Assembly (NCBI GenBank): GCA_020161265.1 | Contig: JAIUOC010000001.1 | Span: 930,001 to 994,000 of the forward strand | Origin: Chloroflexota bacterium | GTDB taxonomy: Bacteria; Chloroflexota; Chloroflexia; Chloroflexales; Herpetosiphonaceae | Reading direction: 5' to 3' | DNA length: 64,000 nt | Shown here: positions 59,189 through 64,000 of the stretch, piece by piece | Layout: each line of letters opens with the position of its first letter | How positions within the stretch are numbered: position 1 is the stretch's first letter | Made by a program: the position numbers and the translations under genes | The notes under the pieces: generated by a model | Database searches by the model: none | Told to the model about the DNA's origin: nothing | Seen by the model: only the letters and a program-made list of their open reading frames with translations

Positions 59189-59941
59189 ATGTCGAAGATA
59201 ATTTCAATCCACTCATTTCGGGGTGGCACGGGTAAATCGAATACCACCGCTAACCTTGCCAGCTTAATCGCCGCAACTGGTCGCCGCGTTGGCGTAATTG
59301 ATACCGATATTATGTCGCCTGGTATTCACGTGCTGTTTGGCATGAATGAAGATGACATGAAATATTCGCTCAACGACTATCTGTGGGGCAAATGCGAAAT
59401 CAAGCAGGCGGCTTATGACGTAAGTTCAACCGTCAAAGGCTTGACCTCAGGTCGAATTTTCCTGATTCCTTCGAGCATCAAAGCTGGCGAAATTGCCCGC
59501 GTGCTACGTGAAGGCTACGATGTGGGCTTGCTGAATGATGGGTTTCATCGTTTGGTCGAAGAACTTAACCTTGATGTGTTGTTGATCGATACCCACCCTG
59601 GCTTGAATGAAGAAACCTTGCTCTCGATTGCGATCTCCGATTCGTTGATTATCATTTTGCGCCCCGATTCGCAAGATTACCAAGGAACTGGGGTCACGGT
59701 CGATGTTGCGCATAAGTTGGATGTGCCGCAGCTGTTTTTGTTGGTCAATAAAGTGCCAACCTCATTCAACTTTGCCGAAGTCAAGGCCCGCGTCGAAAAA
59801 ACCTACAATAGCGAAGTTGCGGCGGTTCTGCCTCATTCCGACGAGATGATGACGCTGGCCAGTGCTGGCATTTTCGTCTTGCAATATCCCGACCATCCAT
59901 TAAGCCAATCGCTGCGTGGAGTCGCCAATCGGTTAGTGTAA
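59189..59941 (+). CDS. MinD/ParA-like P-loop ATPase 1
   Basis: This 250-residue protein has a deviant Walker A loop FRGGTGKSNTTAN (Lys16) with Arg11 where ParA/MinD proteins usually have the signature Lys of KGG. Switch I is IDTDIMSPG, and Walker B is VLLIDTHPGL. ATG 59189 has AGGAG about 7 bases upstream. Such ATPases position protein complexes or signalling clusters on DNA or membrane. No ParB or MinE partner is nearby. It is followed 25 bases later by a related ATPase, sharing segments such as LNDYLWGKC. Confidence 0.92.
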   Translation: MSKIISIHSFRGGTGKSNTTANLASLIAATGRRVGVIDTDIMSPGIHVLFGMNEDDMKYSLNDYLWGKCEIKQAAYDVSSTVKGLTSGRIFLIPSSIKAGEIARVLREGYDVGLLNDGFHRLVEELNLDVLLIDTHPGLNEETLLSIAISDSLIIILRPDSQDYQGTGVTVDVAHKLDVPQLFLLVNKVPTSFNFAEVKARVEKTYNSEVAAVLPHSDEMMTLASAGIFVLQYPDHPLSQSLRGVANRLV

Positions 59942-59966
59942 TTTGTGGAATGAGGGCGAGGCAACT

Positions 59967-60731
59967 ATGCCGAAGATTGTTTCCATCCATTCGTTTCGCC
60001 CAGGTACCGGTAAATCGCAATTAACTGCCAATATTGCGACAATTTTGGCAGCCGCCGGCCAACGGGTGGCAATTATTGATAGCGATGTCCACTCGCCCTC
60101 AATCCAGTGGCTGTTTGGTTTGCCTGAGGGCGCAATTACCCATAGTTTGAATGATTTTCTGTGGGGCAAATGTGGCATCGAATCGACCGCCGTTAATCTC
60201 AATCCCACGGTTCGCCATCCACTCAAGGGCCAAGTCTATTTAGTGCCATTTGCTACCCGCAACAGCACAATTGATTATGATATTAGCTTGCTCAGCGATA
60301 GTTTTGAGTTGTTGATCAATACCTTGCGGCTTGATGTGTTGCTGATCGACACGCAGCCTGGAGTGCAATTCGCGGCGCTACCATCAATCGCCTTCTCGGA
60401 TATTCAGGTGTTGGTGTTGCAGCTGCGCGAACAAGATCTGCAAGGTACAGGCGTGGTGATCGATATTTCCGAACAACTTGGCATCAACGAAATGGTGCTG
60501 ATTGTCAATCAAATTCCTGAGCATTATAATTTGCGCGAAGTCCAGCAAAAAATCGAGCAAATTTATCAACGCCCAGTGTTGGCGGCCTTGCCCTACGATG
60601 AATTGCTCGCCGATTACAATCAAGCAAGCTTGTTGCTTGAACGAACTTCATCGAATATTTTTGTGGTAGAACATCCCGACCATCCAATCTCCCTACTTTT
60701 GACCAATGTGGCTGCAACCTTGACCGCTTAA
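59967..60731 (+). CDS. MinD/ParA-like P-loop ATPase 2
   Basis: This 254-residue paralog has FRPGTGKSQLTAN, where the GG of the loop has become PG and the signature Lys is Arg11. It has IDSDVHSPS, LNDFLWGKCGIE and VLLIDTQPGV. ATG 59967 has GAGG 5 bases upstream. The two ATPases likely act as a pair, perhaps as a heterodimer. The altered loop may change ATPase or dimer control. The next gene, a carrier, follows after 44 bases. Confidence 0.92.
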   Translation: MPKIVSIHSFRPGTGKSQLTANIATILAAAGQRVAIIDSDVHSPSIQWLFGLPEGAITHSLNDFLWGKCGIESTAVNLNPTVRHPLKGQVYLVPFATRNSTIDYDISLLSDSFELLINTLRLDVLLIDTQPGVQFAALPSIAFSDIQVLVLQLREQDLQGTGVVIDISEQLGINEMVLIVNQIPEHYNLREVQQKIEQIYQRPVLAALPYDELLADYNQASLLLERTSSNIFVVEHPDHPISLLLTNVAATLTA

Positions 60732-60775
60732 TCGAACTCGGACATTGTTGTATTTGCGTAAAGGATGCTGGCTGC

Positions 60776-62128
60776 ATGTTGAAACGGCTGGAACAAGGTT
60801 TAAAGTTACGTCCAAATGAATGGCGTTTGGTGCTCACACTCATGGGCTTATTGGCGCTCAATACTTTGGTGCTTGAGCTTGCCGATGTAGTAGCCATGGC
60901 GGGCTTTATTAGCAGCCTTGGCACCGAACAATTGCTGTGGCTCTGGCCAGTTGGTATGCTGCTAACCATTGTTGCTGCTGGGAGCTATGCCTTAATTGTC
61001 GATCGCACCGAGCGGGTCAAATTAATTCAACGGCTGTTGGCTGGCTTTGGGGCATGTTATCTGGCAATTTTAGGCTTATTTTGGTTCAAAGCACCCGCGT
61101 GGCTGATCTACCCAGCCTTGTCGATTTTGAACGAACAGCAATATGCAATTTTCCCTTTGGCGTTTTGGGCCTTAGCTAATGATATTTATGCTACTTCCGA
61201 AGCTAAGCGTTTGTTTCCCTTGCTGGGAGCTGGCGCAACCATCGGCAGCTTGCTCGGCAATGGATTGGCAGCGCTGATCGCAACCTGGCTGGTTGGCAAC
61301 GATCAACACAATACTAGTTTGGTGCTGGGTTTGTGTGCGGTTTTATGCTTTTTAGGCATTGGCCAAGTTTGGTTGATGTTTCATAAACACCCAGTTCGTG
61401 CCCGTCAAAGCAAAACTGAACGGGAATCAATCCGCGAGACCTTTAAAGTGGGAGCCGATGTAATTCGCCATGTGCCGCTATTTAGTTTGTTGGCGCTGGT
61501 GTTGTTTACCACCGGCTTGGCTTTGACGGTGGTCGAATTTCACTTTTTGCGCAGCATTGATCAAATTGCGGCAGCCGATCCGTTGCGCTTTCAACAAGTC
61601 TATGGTTCGTATAAGTTAGCCTTTGTAGTGATGCTTTTGGCATTTCAATGGCTGTTAGCTGGGCGCTTGCTCAGCAAAACCAGCCCCAAGCAAGGTTTTA
61701 TCGCCCTACCTATCGTCTTACTACTTTGTATTCTGGGGGCACTGGTTCAGCCACTGATCGGCGGGTTAATTGGTCGATTTGGGGCGCGTTTAGCCCAAAG
61801 CGGCTGGGATGAACCATTACGCAAATCAGTTCAGAGTATTATTCCCGACGAGCGGCGCGGGCGCGTAAGCGTTTTTCTTGATAGCTATTGTTATTCATTC
61901 GCGACAATCGTTGGGTGTGGGGTGATTAGTGTGCTATTGTTGCCAAGCTGGCTGGGAGAGCTAGCGGCTTCAGTTAGTACGCTGATTTATCTTGGCTTTG
62001 CAGCGGTGGCAACTGCTGTCGGCCTTTGGGCCGCTTGGCGTATCCGCCATGTTTACGATAAAAGTCTGCTGAACTGGCGACTGTCGCGCTCTCGACGAAG
62101 GAGCGTTCTCGATGGCATCGAGTTCTGA
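60776..62128 (+). CDS. Npt1/Npt2-like (MFS-fold) membrane carrier
   Basis: This 450-residue protein has about 12 predicted membrane helices. The pattern ALANDIYATSEAKRLFPLLG and GAGATIGSLLGN resembles Npt1/Npt2-family nucleotide carriers and related MFS-fold proteins of Chloroflexota and cyanobacteria. AAAGGA lies 10 bases before ATG. It sits between ParA-like ATPases and a GNAT with a 17-base overlap to the latter, so it belongs to one operon. Whether it moves nucleotides or acts as a sensor is open. Confidence 0.83.
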   Translation: MLKRLEQGLKLRPNEWRLVLTLMGLLALNTLVLELADVVAMAGFISSLGTEQLLWLWPVGMLLTIVAAGSYALIVDRTERVKLIQRLLAGFGACYLAILGLFWFKAPAWLIYPALSILNEQQYAIFPLAFWALANDIYATSEAKRLFPLLGAGATIGSLLGNGLAALIATWLVGNDQHNTSLVLGLCAVLCFLGIGQVWLMFHKHPVRARQSKTERESIRETFKVGADVIRHVPLFSLLALVLFTTGLALTVVEFHFLRSIDQIAAADPLRFQQVYGSYKLAFVVMLLAFQWLLAGRLLSKTSPKQGFIALPIVLLLCILGALVQPLIGGLIGRFGARLAQSGWDEPLRKSVQSIIPDERRGRVSVFLDSYCYSFATIVGCGVISVLLLPSWLGELAASVSTLIYLGFAAVATAVGLWAAWRIRHVYDKSLLNWRLSRSRRRSVLDGIEF

Positions 62129-62924
62129 GGCGCGATTAGCTCAGTTTGGTGAATTAGAACCGTTGTGGAATAAGTTGCAAGATAGTGTGCGTTGGCCGAT
62201 GATTCCGCCTCTTGCCAATCGCGATGCTCCCAAGGGCATGCAATTGCGGGCAATTTTGGGAGCCGAAGCTAGCGAAATTGGGCTGGTGCAAGAGCTATTT
62301 GCCACAATTTTTCCACATTTGGCCCATTATGAGCCATTTTTAGCGATGTATGCTGAGCCATTTTCGCGCAGCCACCCTGCCACTCTCGACCATTTGTGGT
62401 TGATCGAGCAGCACGGTAAGCCAATTGGGGTGCGCATGTTCAGCTATCTGTATCGGCGTAATTTTGGCCATGGTGCATTTATTGGCATCGATCAACGGGC
62501 ACGCGGCACGGGCATTGGGCGTTGGCTAGTGCAGGCCACCCATCAACAATTGGCGCTTGATGCCTTGTATAGTGGCAATGAGGCAGTTTTGGGCTATAGC
62601 GCCGAAGTGACACGGGTTGAGGATGCTCAGCATGAACTTGAACGCCAAGAACGTGAGGCTCGTCTGCGCTTTCATCTGAATAATGGAGCAGTGCTGCTAC
62701 CAGTTGAGTATATTGAACCGCCAGTGATCAAAAATAGCGATGATCAGGCGGCGCGGCAACTAACGATTGCGCCGCAACCAATGCATTTGGTGTTTTATCC
62801 AAGCCAGCCTAGCGCGTTAAATCTGGCGACCATTCAAACCATTGTTGAAGCGATTTACCATGATGTCTACTATTTGGAATCCGACAATCCTTTTGTGCAG
62901 CACGCCCTCGCGTCGTTGCGGTAA
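62112..62924 (+). CDS. GNAT-like acetyltransferase in the ParA cluster
   Basis: This 270-residue protein has a GNAT fold with VRMFSYLYRRNFGHGAFIGI and the acetyl-CoA loop RARGTGIGRWLVQ. The C-terminal 90 residues are extra to the usual domain. ATG 62112 overlaps the carrier gene by 17 bases and has AAGGAG 8 bases upstream. The substrate is unknown; it may modify a protein or small molecule of this membrane system. Confidence 0.85.
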   Translation: MASSSEARLAQFGELEPLWNKLQDSVRWPMIPPLANRDAPKGMQLRAILGAEASEIGLVQELFATIFPHLAHYEPFLAMYAEPFSRSHPATLDHLWLIEQHGKPIGVRMFSYLYRRNFGHGAFIGIDQRARGTGIGRWLVQATHQQLALDALYSGNEAVLGYSAEVTRVEDAQHELERQEREARLRFHLNNGAVLLPVEYIEPPVIKNSDDQAARQLTIAPQPMHLVFYPSQPSALNLATIQTIVEAIYHDVYYLESDNPFVQHALASLR

Positions 62925-62936
62925 GGAACAGCACCT

Positions 62937-64000
62937 ATGACAGCCGTAGCACCCAAAAGCCGTTTTTTGAGCCTGCGTTGGCGTTTGTTGGCCATTTTTA
63001 CCCTGCTGTTTTTAATTGTTTTAACTGGGGTGTTTGTCTGGTTTTTGAATTATGCCACTGATAATGCCCAAGCCGACCTCGAAGCCGATCTAATGGCGAT
63101 TGCCAAAACAGCTGCCGCTGGGATCGATGGCGATGAACATAGCGCCTTGTACACCCAAGGTCAAATTGATGATCCAACCTATCTCAAAATCAATTCCTAC
63201 TTGCGCGAGGTCAAAACGACCAATCCCAAGGCTTCGGGCATTTATACCTTCGTTCAACTACCCAATGAGCCTGATCAAGCGCGATTTGTGGTGAGTGCAG
63301 CGATTCCGCCAGGCCAATCGGCTACTCCACGCGAACAAGAATTACTGACTGAATCGGCTTATGGCTGTACGATTCGGCCTGATACTCGCCCAATGATCAA
63401 CGCCAATTTTACGGCGGCTGGTGGTTTTACCCCGGATATGGCGCGTGGTTTACGTGAGCCAAGCATCGATCCCAATCCATCAACAGATCAATGGGGCCAG
63501 TGGATTGCTGGGGCCGCGCCAATTTTCAATGCCAAAGGCGAAACGGTTGGCGCAGTTGGGGTCGATATGTGTGTGGCCGAGGTTACCGCTGTACGCAATC
63601 GGATTAGCCAAACTTTGATTCCAGGCTTTTTGATTGTGACGGTGCTCTTGGCAATTGCAATTTATCTAATTGCCCATCGTCTAACCAAGCCAATTATTGG
63701 CTTGACCGCTGTTGCCAAGCAAATTAGTAACGGCGACTATAGCTCAGAAGTGCCCGAAAGCACCAGCCGTTTGCGTGATGAGGTTGCCACCCTCGCCAGC
63801 GTTTTTGCTATGATGGTCGACAAAGTGCGCGAACGCGAACATAAATTGCGCCAGCAAGTGGCCGAATTGCAAATTATCGTTGACGAAGGCAAACGCAAAC
63901 AACAAGTCGATGAAATTGTTGATAGCGAATTCTTTCGTAATTTGCAAGAAAAAGCCCGTGAAGCCCGCCAACGCCGTGATCGCCGCCCGCCTGACCCAAC
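62937..64000 (+). CDS. Cache-like sensor with HAMP domain, 3' end outside window
   Basis: The gene starts at ATG 62937 with AAGGAA upstream, 12 bases after the GNAT stop, and runs off the window after 354 residues. It has a membrane helix near 18-40, an extracytoplasmic Cache-like domain (DGDEHSALYTQGQIDDPTYL, then GIYTFVQLP), a second helix near 220-240, and a HAMP domain and coiled coil to about 310. The visible tail includes DEIVDSEFFRNLQEKAREAR. No kinase, cyclase or methyl-accepting domain is visible before the cut. It likely signals from outside the cell to the ParA cluster. Confidence 0.88.
   Translation, partial: MTAVAPKSRFLSLRWRLLAIFTLLFLIVLTGVFVWFLNYATDNAQADLEADLMAIAKTAAAGIDGDEHSALYTQGQIDDPTYLKINSYLREVKTTNPKASGIYTFVQLPNEPDQARFVVSAAIPPGQSATPREQELLTESAYGCTIRPDTRPMINANFTAAGGFTPDMARGLREPSIDPNPSTDQWGQWIAGAAPIFNAKGETVGAVGVDMCVAEVTAVRNRISQTLIPGFLIVTVLLAIAIYLIAHRLTKPIIGLTAVAKQISNGDYSSEVPESTSRLRDEVATLASVFAMMVDKVREREHKLRQQVAELQIIVDEGKRKQQVDEIVDSEFFRNLQEKAREARQRRDRRPPDP

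Follow-up and report, generated by a model that had tools for sequence, protein, structure and literature searches.

ATPases of the ParA/MinD type are known as positioning devices, each working with one dedicated partner. A/D ATPases dimerize with ATP, and the dimer presents a binding site to a partner, which in turn triggers release (PMC10241942). We analyzed a locus encoding such an ATPase at positions 59189-64000 of a 64,000-nucleotide stretch (hereafter the window) of a Herpetosiphonaceae genome in the phylum Chloroflexota (assembly GCA_020161265.1, contig JAIUOC010000001.1, positions 930,001 to 994,000 of the forward strand). A sequence-only reading had placed five co-directional genes here, and gene calls in the window confirmed all five: two MinD/ParA-like ATPases (A1 and A2), an ADP/ATP-carrier-like membrane protein, a GNAT-family acetyltransferase, and a membrane receptor. 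The receptor ends in a 42-residue tail that is also carried by many unrelated sensors and is confined almost only to genomes encoding A1.

Relationship of A1 to described ATPases

Archaeal-type MinD (TIGR01969; 1hyq, 1g3q) and bacterial MinD gave the best PDB and NCBIfam matches to A1 (59189..59941, + strand) and share its fold and P-loop plan. The AlphaFold2 (AF2) monomer model of A1, with a predicted local distance difference test score (pLDDT) of 87, matched archaeal MinD 1hyq best, at a template modelling score of 0.81, and the equivalents of MinD K16, D40, and D120 are retained. However, A1 scored below the family cut-offs for MinD (53.9 versus 212.9 bits for TIGR01968; 96 versus 201.75 bits for TIGR01969), carries Arg in place of the signature Lys (MinD K11), and has a Gly aligned with MinD D152. 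It also ends at the core domain, with no counterpart of the amphipathic, membrane-targeting C-terminal extension of Escherichia coli MinD. MinC and MinE do not accompany A1, and the claim that ParB and MinE are missing held for the surroundings of the five genes.

The Walker loops read HSFRGGTGKS in A1 (FRGGTGKS at 59216-59239) and HSFRPGTGKS in A2 (59967..60731, + strand; FRPGTGKS at 59994-60017). The Arg that the sequence-only reading had seen in both loops is therefore present, but it is not an oddity private to one Herpetosiphon genome: of roughly 125 A-type genes in the vicinity of 79 related loci, 101 encode HSFRGGTGKS. All 20 aligned A1 orthologues have Arg at the signature-Lys position and none conforms there to the deviant Walker A motif of MinD, KGGxGK[ST]; Arg is the norm of the A1 family. 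The other ParA/MinD-type proteins of the same genome that were checked keep KGG loops of the KGGVGKT type. The KGGVGR-motif AAA ATPase (NF047398) also has a variant P-loop, but its variation lies at another residue and A1 matched it at 76.5 bits, under the cut-off of 90.

A1 is 68-80% identical to 19 diverse orthologues and about 70% identical across Chloroflexota, with FRGGTGKS near-invariant, which is high for such a superfamily at phylum distance. The window protein is identical to the copy in H. aurantiacus DSM 785. Second copies of the A2 type have R, E, Q, Y, L, or M at the signature position and several have lost K16 or D40, suggesting that A2, a divergent second copy, is a degenerate companion ATPase in a slot that varies among relatives.

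Two described systems resemble the locus in other respects. McdA/McdB also pairs a ParA/MinD ATPase with a partner that is not ParB, and beta-McdA type 1 has likewise lost the signature lysine, providing a precedent for A1 (PMC8262871); the McdA partner is a single McdB protein, whereas that of A1 would be a tail borne by many sensors. No McdB, carboxysome, or microcompartment genes were recognised among the recurrent neighbour families of the 79 loci, not all of whose neighbours are annotated. The ParC/PpfA ATPases of chemotaxis arrays are, like A1, tied to sensory receptors (PMC10241942), but no CheA, CheW, or methyl-accepting chemotaxis protein (MCP) signalling domain was found in the A1 system, and its receptors carry a different tail. 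A search of the open-licence PubMed Central literature gave no match for the motif and no description of a MinD/ParA-receptor-tail system.

A C-terminal tail shared by diverse sensors

The receptor (62937..64000, + strand; 356 aa, with its stop 7 bases past the window) is predicted to consist of an extracytoplasmic, PAS-like Cache domain between two transmembrane helices, followed by HAMP, a coil, and the tail. HAMP was matched in Pfam at 31.8 bits. No Cache model matched the window receptor by sequence, and the Cache fold is assigned from structure, namely the AF2 topology and PDB matches to the sensor domains of WalK, KinD, and chemoreceptors. Only the coil and the tail follow HAMP, with no kinase or MCP signalling domain.

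The tail (63855..63980, + strand; QVAELQIIVDEGKRKQQVDEIVDSEFFRNLQEKAREARQRRD), a proposed ATPase-coupling module, closes in the AF2 model with a separate helix at residues 331-349, where pLDDT is only moderate. Across the receptor family, coil and tail together have the highest mean pairwise identity (0.51), compared with 0.39 for HAMP and 0.26 for Cache. The same C-terminal segment, with the consensus LxIEIDExKRxxQVxEITxTDFFxxLQxKAxxMRxR, is shared by A1 neighbours that have no input domain in common, and the tail-bearing sensors comprise at least 10 architectures. Among them are dCache-HAMP, dCache-HAMP-GAF, CHASE3-HAMP, CHASE2, and ECF-S-like-HAMP proteins, as well as proteins with GAF, cyclic-nucleotide-binding (cNMP), PrsW-cNMP, PrsW-GAF, a receiver (REC) only, HisKA-REC, or HisKA-REC-GAF-tail-hydrolase. 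In the minimal case, from Rhizobium jaguaris, the tail protein has 145 aa and its gene shares 4 nt with the start of A1. No entry in Pfam, NCBIfam, or the PDB matched the 42-residue tail, and the idea that it is an already named domain was rejected on these searches. In a receptor of Nostoc UHCC 0926 (L164 6036-7850), Nif11 at the N-terminus is combined with dCache-HAMP and with two copies of the tail core in tandem (TDYFQQLQQKAQ... TDYFQQLQQKVQ).

The distribution of A1 and the tail was surveyed in Chloroflexota, a second class, and plasmids, with Cyanobacteriota covered through plasmids. Among 301 Chloroflexota genomes from 179 genera, searched at E <=1e-60 for A1 and E <=1e-5 for the tail, A1 was present in 40, the tail in 40, both in 39, and neither in 260 (Fisher p ~1e-46, without phylogenetic correction; as genome sampling is phylogenetically structured, p-values are indicative only). 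Among 41 relatives, A1 orthologues and tails were each present in 14 genomes, and these were the same 14. The pattern also holds within families: in family f4, three genera (g7, g15, g16) have both genes and two (g12, g14) have neither, and in family f2 a single genome has both while the remainder have neither.

Of the 80 tail genes, 45 have an A1-type gene within 15 kb, against about 1% expected. Adjacency nevertheless fails to explain the link, because A1 is present in six of the seven genomes whose tails are all unlinked (at distances above 15 kb from A1-type genes, or on separate contigs). Twenty further A1 genomes, mostly picked for having no tail near A1, were searched whole, and 17 of them encode a tail; the three without are a 1.8-Mb assembly (G319), a "Bacteroidetes" metagenome-assembled genome (MAG) with A1 on a 4.7-kb contig, and G326. 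Among 154 genomes of the second class, A1 (about 71% identity) and the tail are both confined to the same three genomes, G320, G321, and G411; two A1 homologues of lower identity (48-49%) have no tail. Finally, the tail was found in 7 of 72,556 plasmid records, all seven of which encode A1, and seven of the eight plasmids with A1 at >=55% identity encode a tail. These plasmids span Cyanobacteriota, Deinococcota, and Pseudomonadota.

A proposed signalling system and alternative explanations

On this distribution of sequences, it is very probable that the tail and A1 are functionally coupled. Direct docking of the tail onto A1 is likely as well, because a short, helical, basic C-terminal segment common to unrelated proteins fits the partner element of an A/D ATPase. 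We favor, with some reserve, a modular receptor-to-ATPase signalling system in which diverse receptors act through the shared tail on one MinD-like ATPase hub, the present locus being its Herpetosiphon version. Receptors with interchangeable input domains, here membrane Cache-HAMP, would respond to a ligand with a conformational change that travels through the HAMP-like coil to the common helical tail. The tail would then engage the nucleotide-loaded dimer of the MinD-type A1, with its Arg-type Walker loop, and alter the nucleotide cycle or location of this ATPase, as segments of MinE and ParB do for MinD and ParA. A1 would in turn act on co-encoded effectors: A2, the carrier (NTT-like, with a conserved cytosolic tail), GNAT, the hydrolase, and a small winged helix-turn-helix (wHTH) protein, joined in several lineages by a partner switch of the STAS/RsbW/SpoIIE type. 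It is a serious possibility, although we stop short of calling it probable, that A1 is switched by docking and serves as a signalling relay; the output might be ATPase switching, receptor positioning, or carrier control.

What is already known is the ATPase family and the logic of its partner peptides; what is new, relative to the family libraries and papers searched, is a common tail through which numerous unrelated types of sensor are tied to a single ATPase of this kind. The proposed signalling kit is widespread in bacteria and apparently undescribed. More tentatively, it may constitute a separate class of bacterial signal transduction, in which receptors for any input act through a universal C-terminal tail on a MinD-derived NTPase switch rather than on a kinase, cyclase, or transcription factor, with pairs of catalytic A1 and degenerate A2 as the relay. 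In several phyla, one nearly invariant ATPase is associated through a single 42-residue tail, to which no family model was matched, with a whole range of sensors that are unrelated to each other. Should the tail prove to be an output module, many "orphan" proteins of the HAMP, GAF, receiver, and cyclic-nucleotide types in Chloroflexota, Cyanobacteriota, and other phyla would gain a downstream partner. The link also makes it testable whether MinD-type ATPases can serve as signalling switches.

Several observations weigh against this interpretation. A1 occurs without a detected tail in G208 (80% complete), G326, G319 (1.8 Mb), and one Nostoc plasmid, and G311 (9% contamination) has a REC-tail gene and no A1 orthologue on re-search. 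For A1-like proteins at 42-49% identity, such as those of Streptomyces, no tail is encoded in the vicinity, so a tail is not required for the ATPase to work. Moreover, co-occurrence cannot separate direct binding from membership of a larger common pathway. One could go further and attribute the pattern to plain co-inheritance, A1 and tail genes having become fixed together in some lineages with no functional coupling; related genomes are indeed not independent, and a few families supply much of the signal. However, presence and absence are concordant inside families f1, f2, f4, and f27, six A1 genomes carry unlinked tail copies, and the pattern repeats in the second class and on plasmids of three other phyla. 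A neutral neighbour also fails to follow A1: the decarboxylase gene about 2 kb upstream, used as a control, is present in 21 of the 301 genomes, only five of which have A1. We therefore consider co-inheritance highly improbable. Even less credence is due to a partition pair of the plasmid or chromosome type, or to an ATPase of phage defence. The fold is that of the ParA family, and PADLOC returned a weak match to the candidate PDC-M28B (E 1e-11), but this match is restricted to the common P-loop region and none of the other operon proteins matched a defence family; nor was ParB seen among the neighbours or Pfam matches. We accordingly discarded both partition and defence. The separate, canonical KGG-type ParA/MinD proteins in the same genome agree with this, and the sequences gave no sign that the ATPases are simple plasmid-type partition proteins.

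Positioning deserves closer attention. The tail could be a cargo adaptor, with A1 (and A2) spacing receptor or carrier clusters over the membrane or nucleoid in the manner of ParC/PpfA and McdA, and sensing left to the cargo. Such a role would suit the MinD fold of A1 and the precedent of A/D ATPases, which together with partner proteins are known for positioning (PMC10241942), and it would let many receptors use one positioning machine through one tail. Soluble tail proteins (REC, cyclic-nucleotide-binding, GAF) would nevertheless be odd cargo, A1 lacks the membrane-targeting extension of MinD, and the recurrent neighbours are regulatory (STAS, SpoIIE, RsbW, cyclases, wHTH); we regard positioning as unlikely. 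The sequence-only reading had taken the locus for an unknown type of system for signalling or positioning at the membrane, a view that is supported and can now be made more specific. Another explanation assigns A1 and A2 to transport control, gating or targeting the NTT-like carrier, or the APC- and ECF-S-like membrane proteins that occupy its place at other loci, according to the co-encoded sensor, as a transceptor unit. The carrier subfamily occurs in 23 of the 301 Chloroflexota genomes, all 23 of which have A1, and its gene, although not linked to A1 in family f13, remains there within a few kb of a gene encoding the tail. The C-terminal end of the carrier is also its most conserved part: the last 24 residues (YDKSLLNWRLSRSRRRSVLDGIEF; 62054..62125, + strand) have a mean pairwise identity of 0.62 versus 0.34 and rank first of 427 windows of 24 residues, which suggests a cytosolic docking tail. 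Yet the carrier is absent from 17 of the 40 A1 genomes, so it is neither an obligate component nor the core function, and we regard transport control as quite improbable.

The operon and its relatives

The sequence-only reading had grouped five genes; all are present, but the operon runs two genes further. When the contig was read past the window end, an alpha/beta hydrolase gene (64029-64883 in window coordinates) followed the receptor gene after 21 nt, and a gene for a small wHTH-like protein of 148 aa (64899-65345) followed after another 15 nt. With intergenic spacing of only -17 to 44 nt across them, the seven genes look like one operon. An Rfam scan of the operon gave no match. Pfam matched the ATPases to CbiA/AAA_31/ParA and agreed with the proposed carrier (MFS_1 and TLC ATP/ADP carrier), GNAT (Acetyltransf_1), and membrane sensor (HAMP, with Cache coming from structure).

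The carrier (60776..62128, + strand) scored 36 bits against PF03219 (TLC), above the threshold of 21, 40 bits against MFS_1, and 28.5 bits against TIGR00769, whose cut-off is 387; it resembles the chloroplast ADP,ATP carrier (E 1.7e-11). The GNAT gene (62112..62924, + strand) overlaps the carrier end by 17 nt, and at 10 loci it sits between carrier and sensor genes. The wHTH family was found in 26 genomes at E <=1e-6, all 26 with A1; weaker matches outside A1 genomes (E 1e-5 to 1e-3) were discarded as noise. A homologue of the hydrolase is fused to a tail sensor in the HisKA-REC-GAF-tail-hydrolase protein of some Chloroflexales, and Anaerolineales often encode guanylate/adenylate cyclases (fam 6) and tail proteins that bind cNMP.

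A neighbourhood search, as the sequence-only reading had suggested, showed that the gene order is not unique. Herpetosiphon has the five genes in the same order at three more loci, and so does another genus of Herpetosiphonaceae (L022), with variants in Thermoflexales (L075, A1-carrier-GNAT-receptor-wHTH-A1b) and at two further loci (L040 and L067, A1-carrier-(x)-GNAT-receptor). A Deinococcus plasmid encodes A1, wHTH, a tail receptor, an A2-like protein (MRGTGKS), and the carrier in a row, that is, all component types of the operon except GNAT and the hydrolase; its carrier ends in VYDSSLLNWRLRRRQRGGDVLERLEF, close to VYDKSLLNWRLSRSRRRSVLDGIEF of the window carrier.

At several A1-type loci, STAS, RsbW-like, and SpoIIE genes occur with AGE epimerase and glgX. 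The recurring block, AGE epimerase - STAS - GlgX - STAS - (RsbW) - SpoIIE - MinD/ParA, was observed in four phyla and is often plasmid-borne, with examples on plasmids of Deinococcus KNUC1210 (L157), Streptomyces (L160), and Nostoc NIES-3756 (L161/L166) and in Chloroploca (L084). All four lineages have AGE epimerase, STAS, and GlgX, and most have RsbW/SpoIIE. The block resembles the icfG cluster of Synechocystis (slr1856-slr1861) with a MinD-like gene added, AGE epimerase being presumably a member of the cyanobacterial cluster. The part of the published account considered here lists two STAS-type antagonists, an isoamylase, the IcfG phosphatase, and an anti-sigma kinase, and mentions no MinD/ParA gene (PMC12329169). 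The Herpetosiphon operon, by contrast, has no AGE epimerase, STAS, GlgX, RsbW, or SpoIIE. Homologues at 42-49% identity lack the tail, for example that of Streptomyces in a cluster resembling icfG, which suggests that the ATPase may have been connected with the partner switch before the tail arose.

The short motif [ILV]W..[LI]D closes small wHTH-like proteins encoded next to A1 (L033 3165-3524, minus strand; L033 8763-9098; L016 6400-6846), and PrsW-like A1 neighbours end in the similar GLWDRMN, possibly a second docking motif. As a general docking code, this "W-tail" was set aside and kept as a lead only, being essentially limited to two small wHTH families and the PrsW-like proteins. Between the ATPase and wHTH genes of many Anaerolineae lies a gene for a zinc-ribbon-like 70-aa protein with the near-invariant ending EPQPEPISMPELY (L033 3534-3806, minus strand; L039 2155-2367; and 12 others). 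In two lineages without GNAT, an ATP-grasp-like protein is encoded 3' of the carrier and tail receptor (L079 5430-6806, L042 6498-7874), a possible functional replacement. A large permease-like membrane protein, whose N-terminus is similar at both loci (MP.KRA.T.LFLIESR), adjoins A1 in Nostoc (L158 7385-9979) and in a Chloroflexota MAG (L183 3781-5859), where it apparently replaces the carrier.

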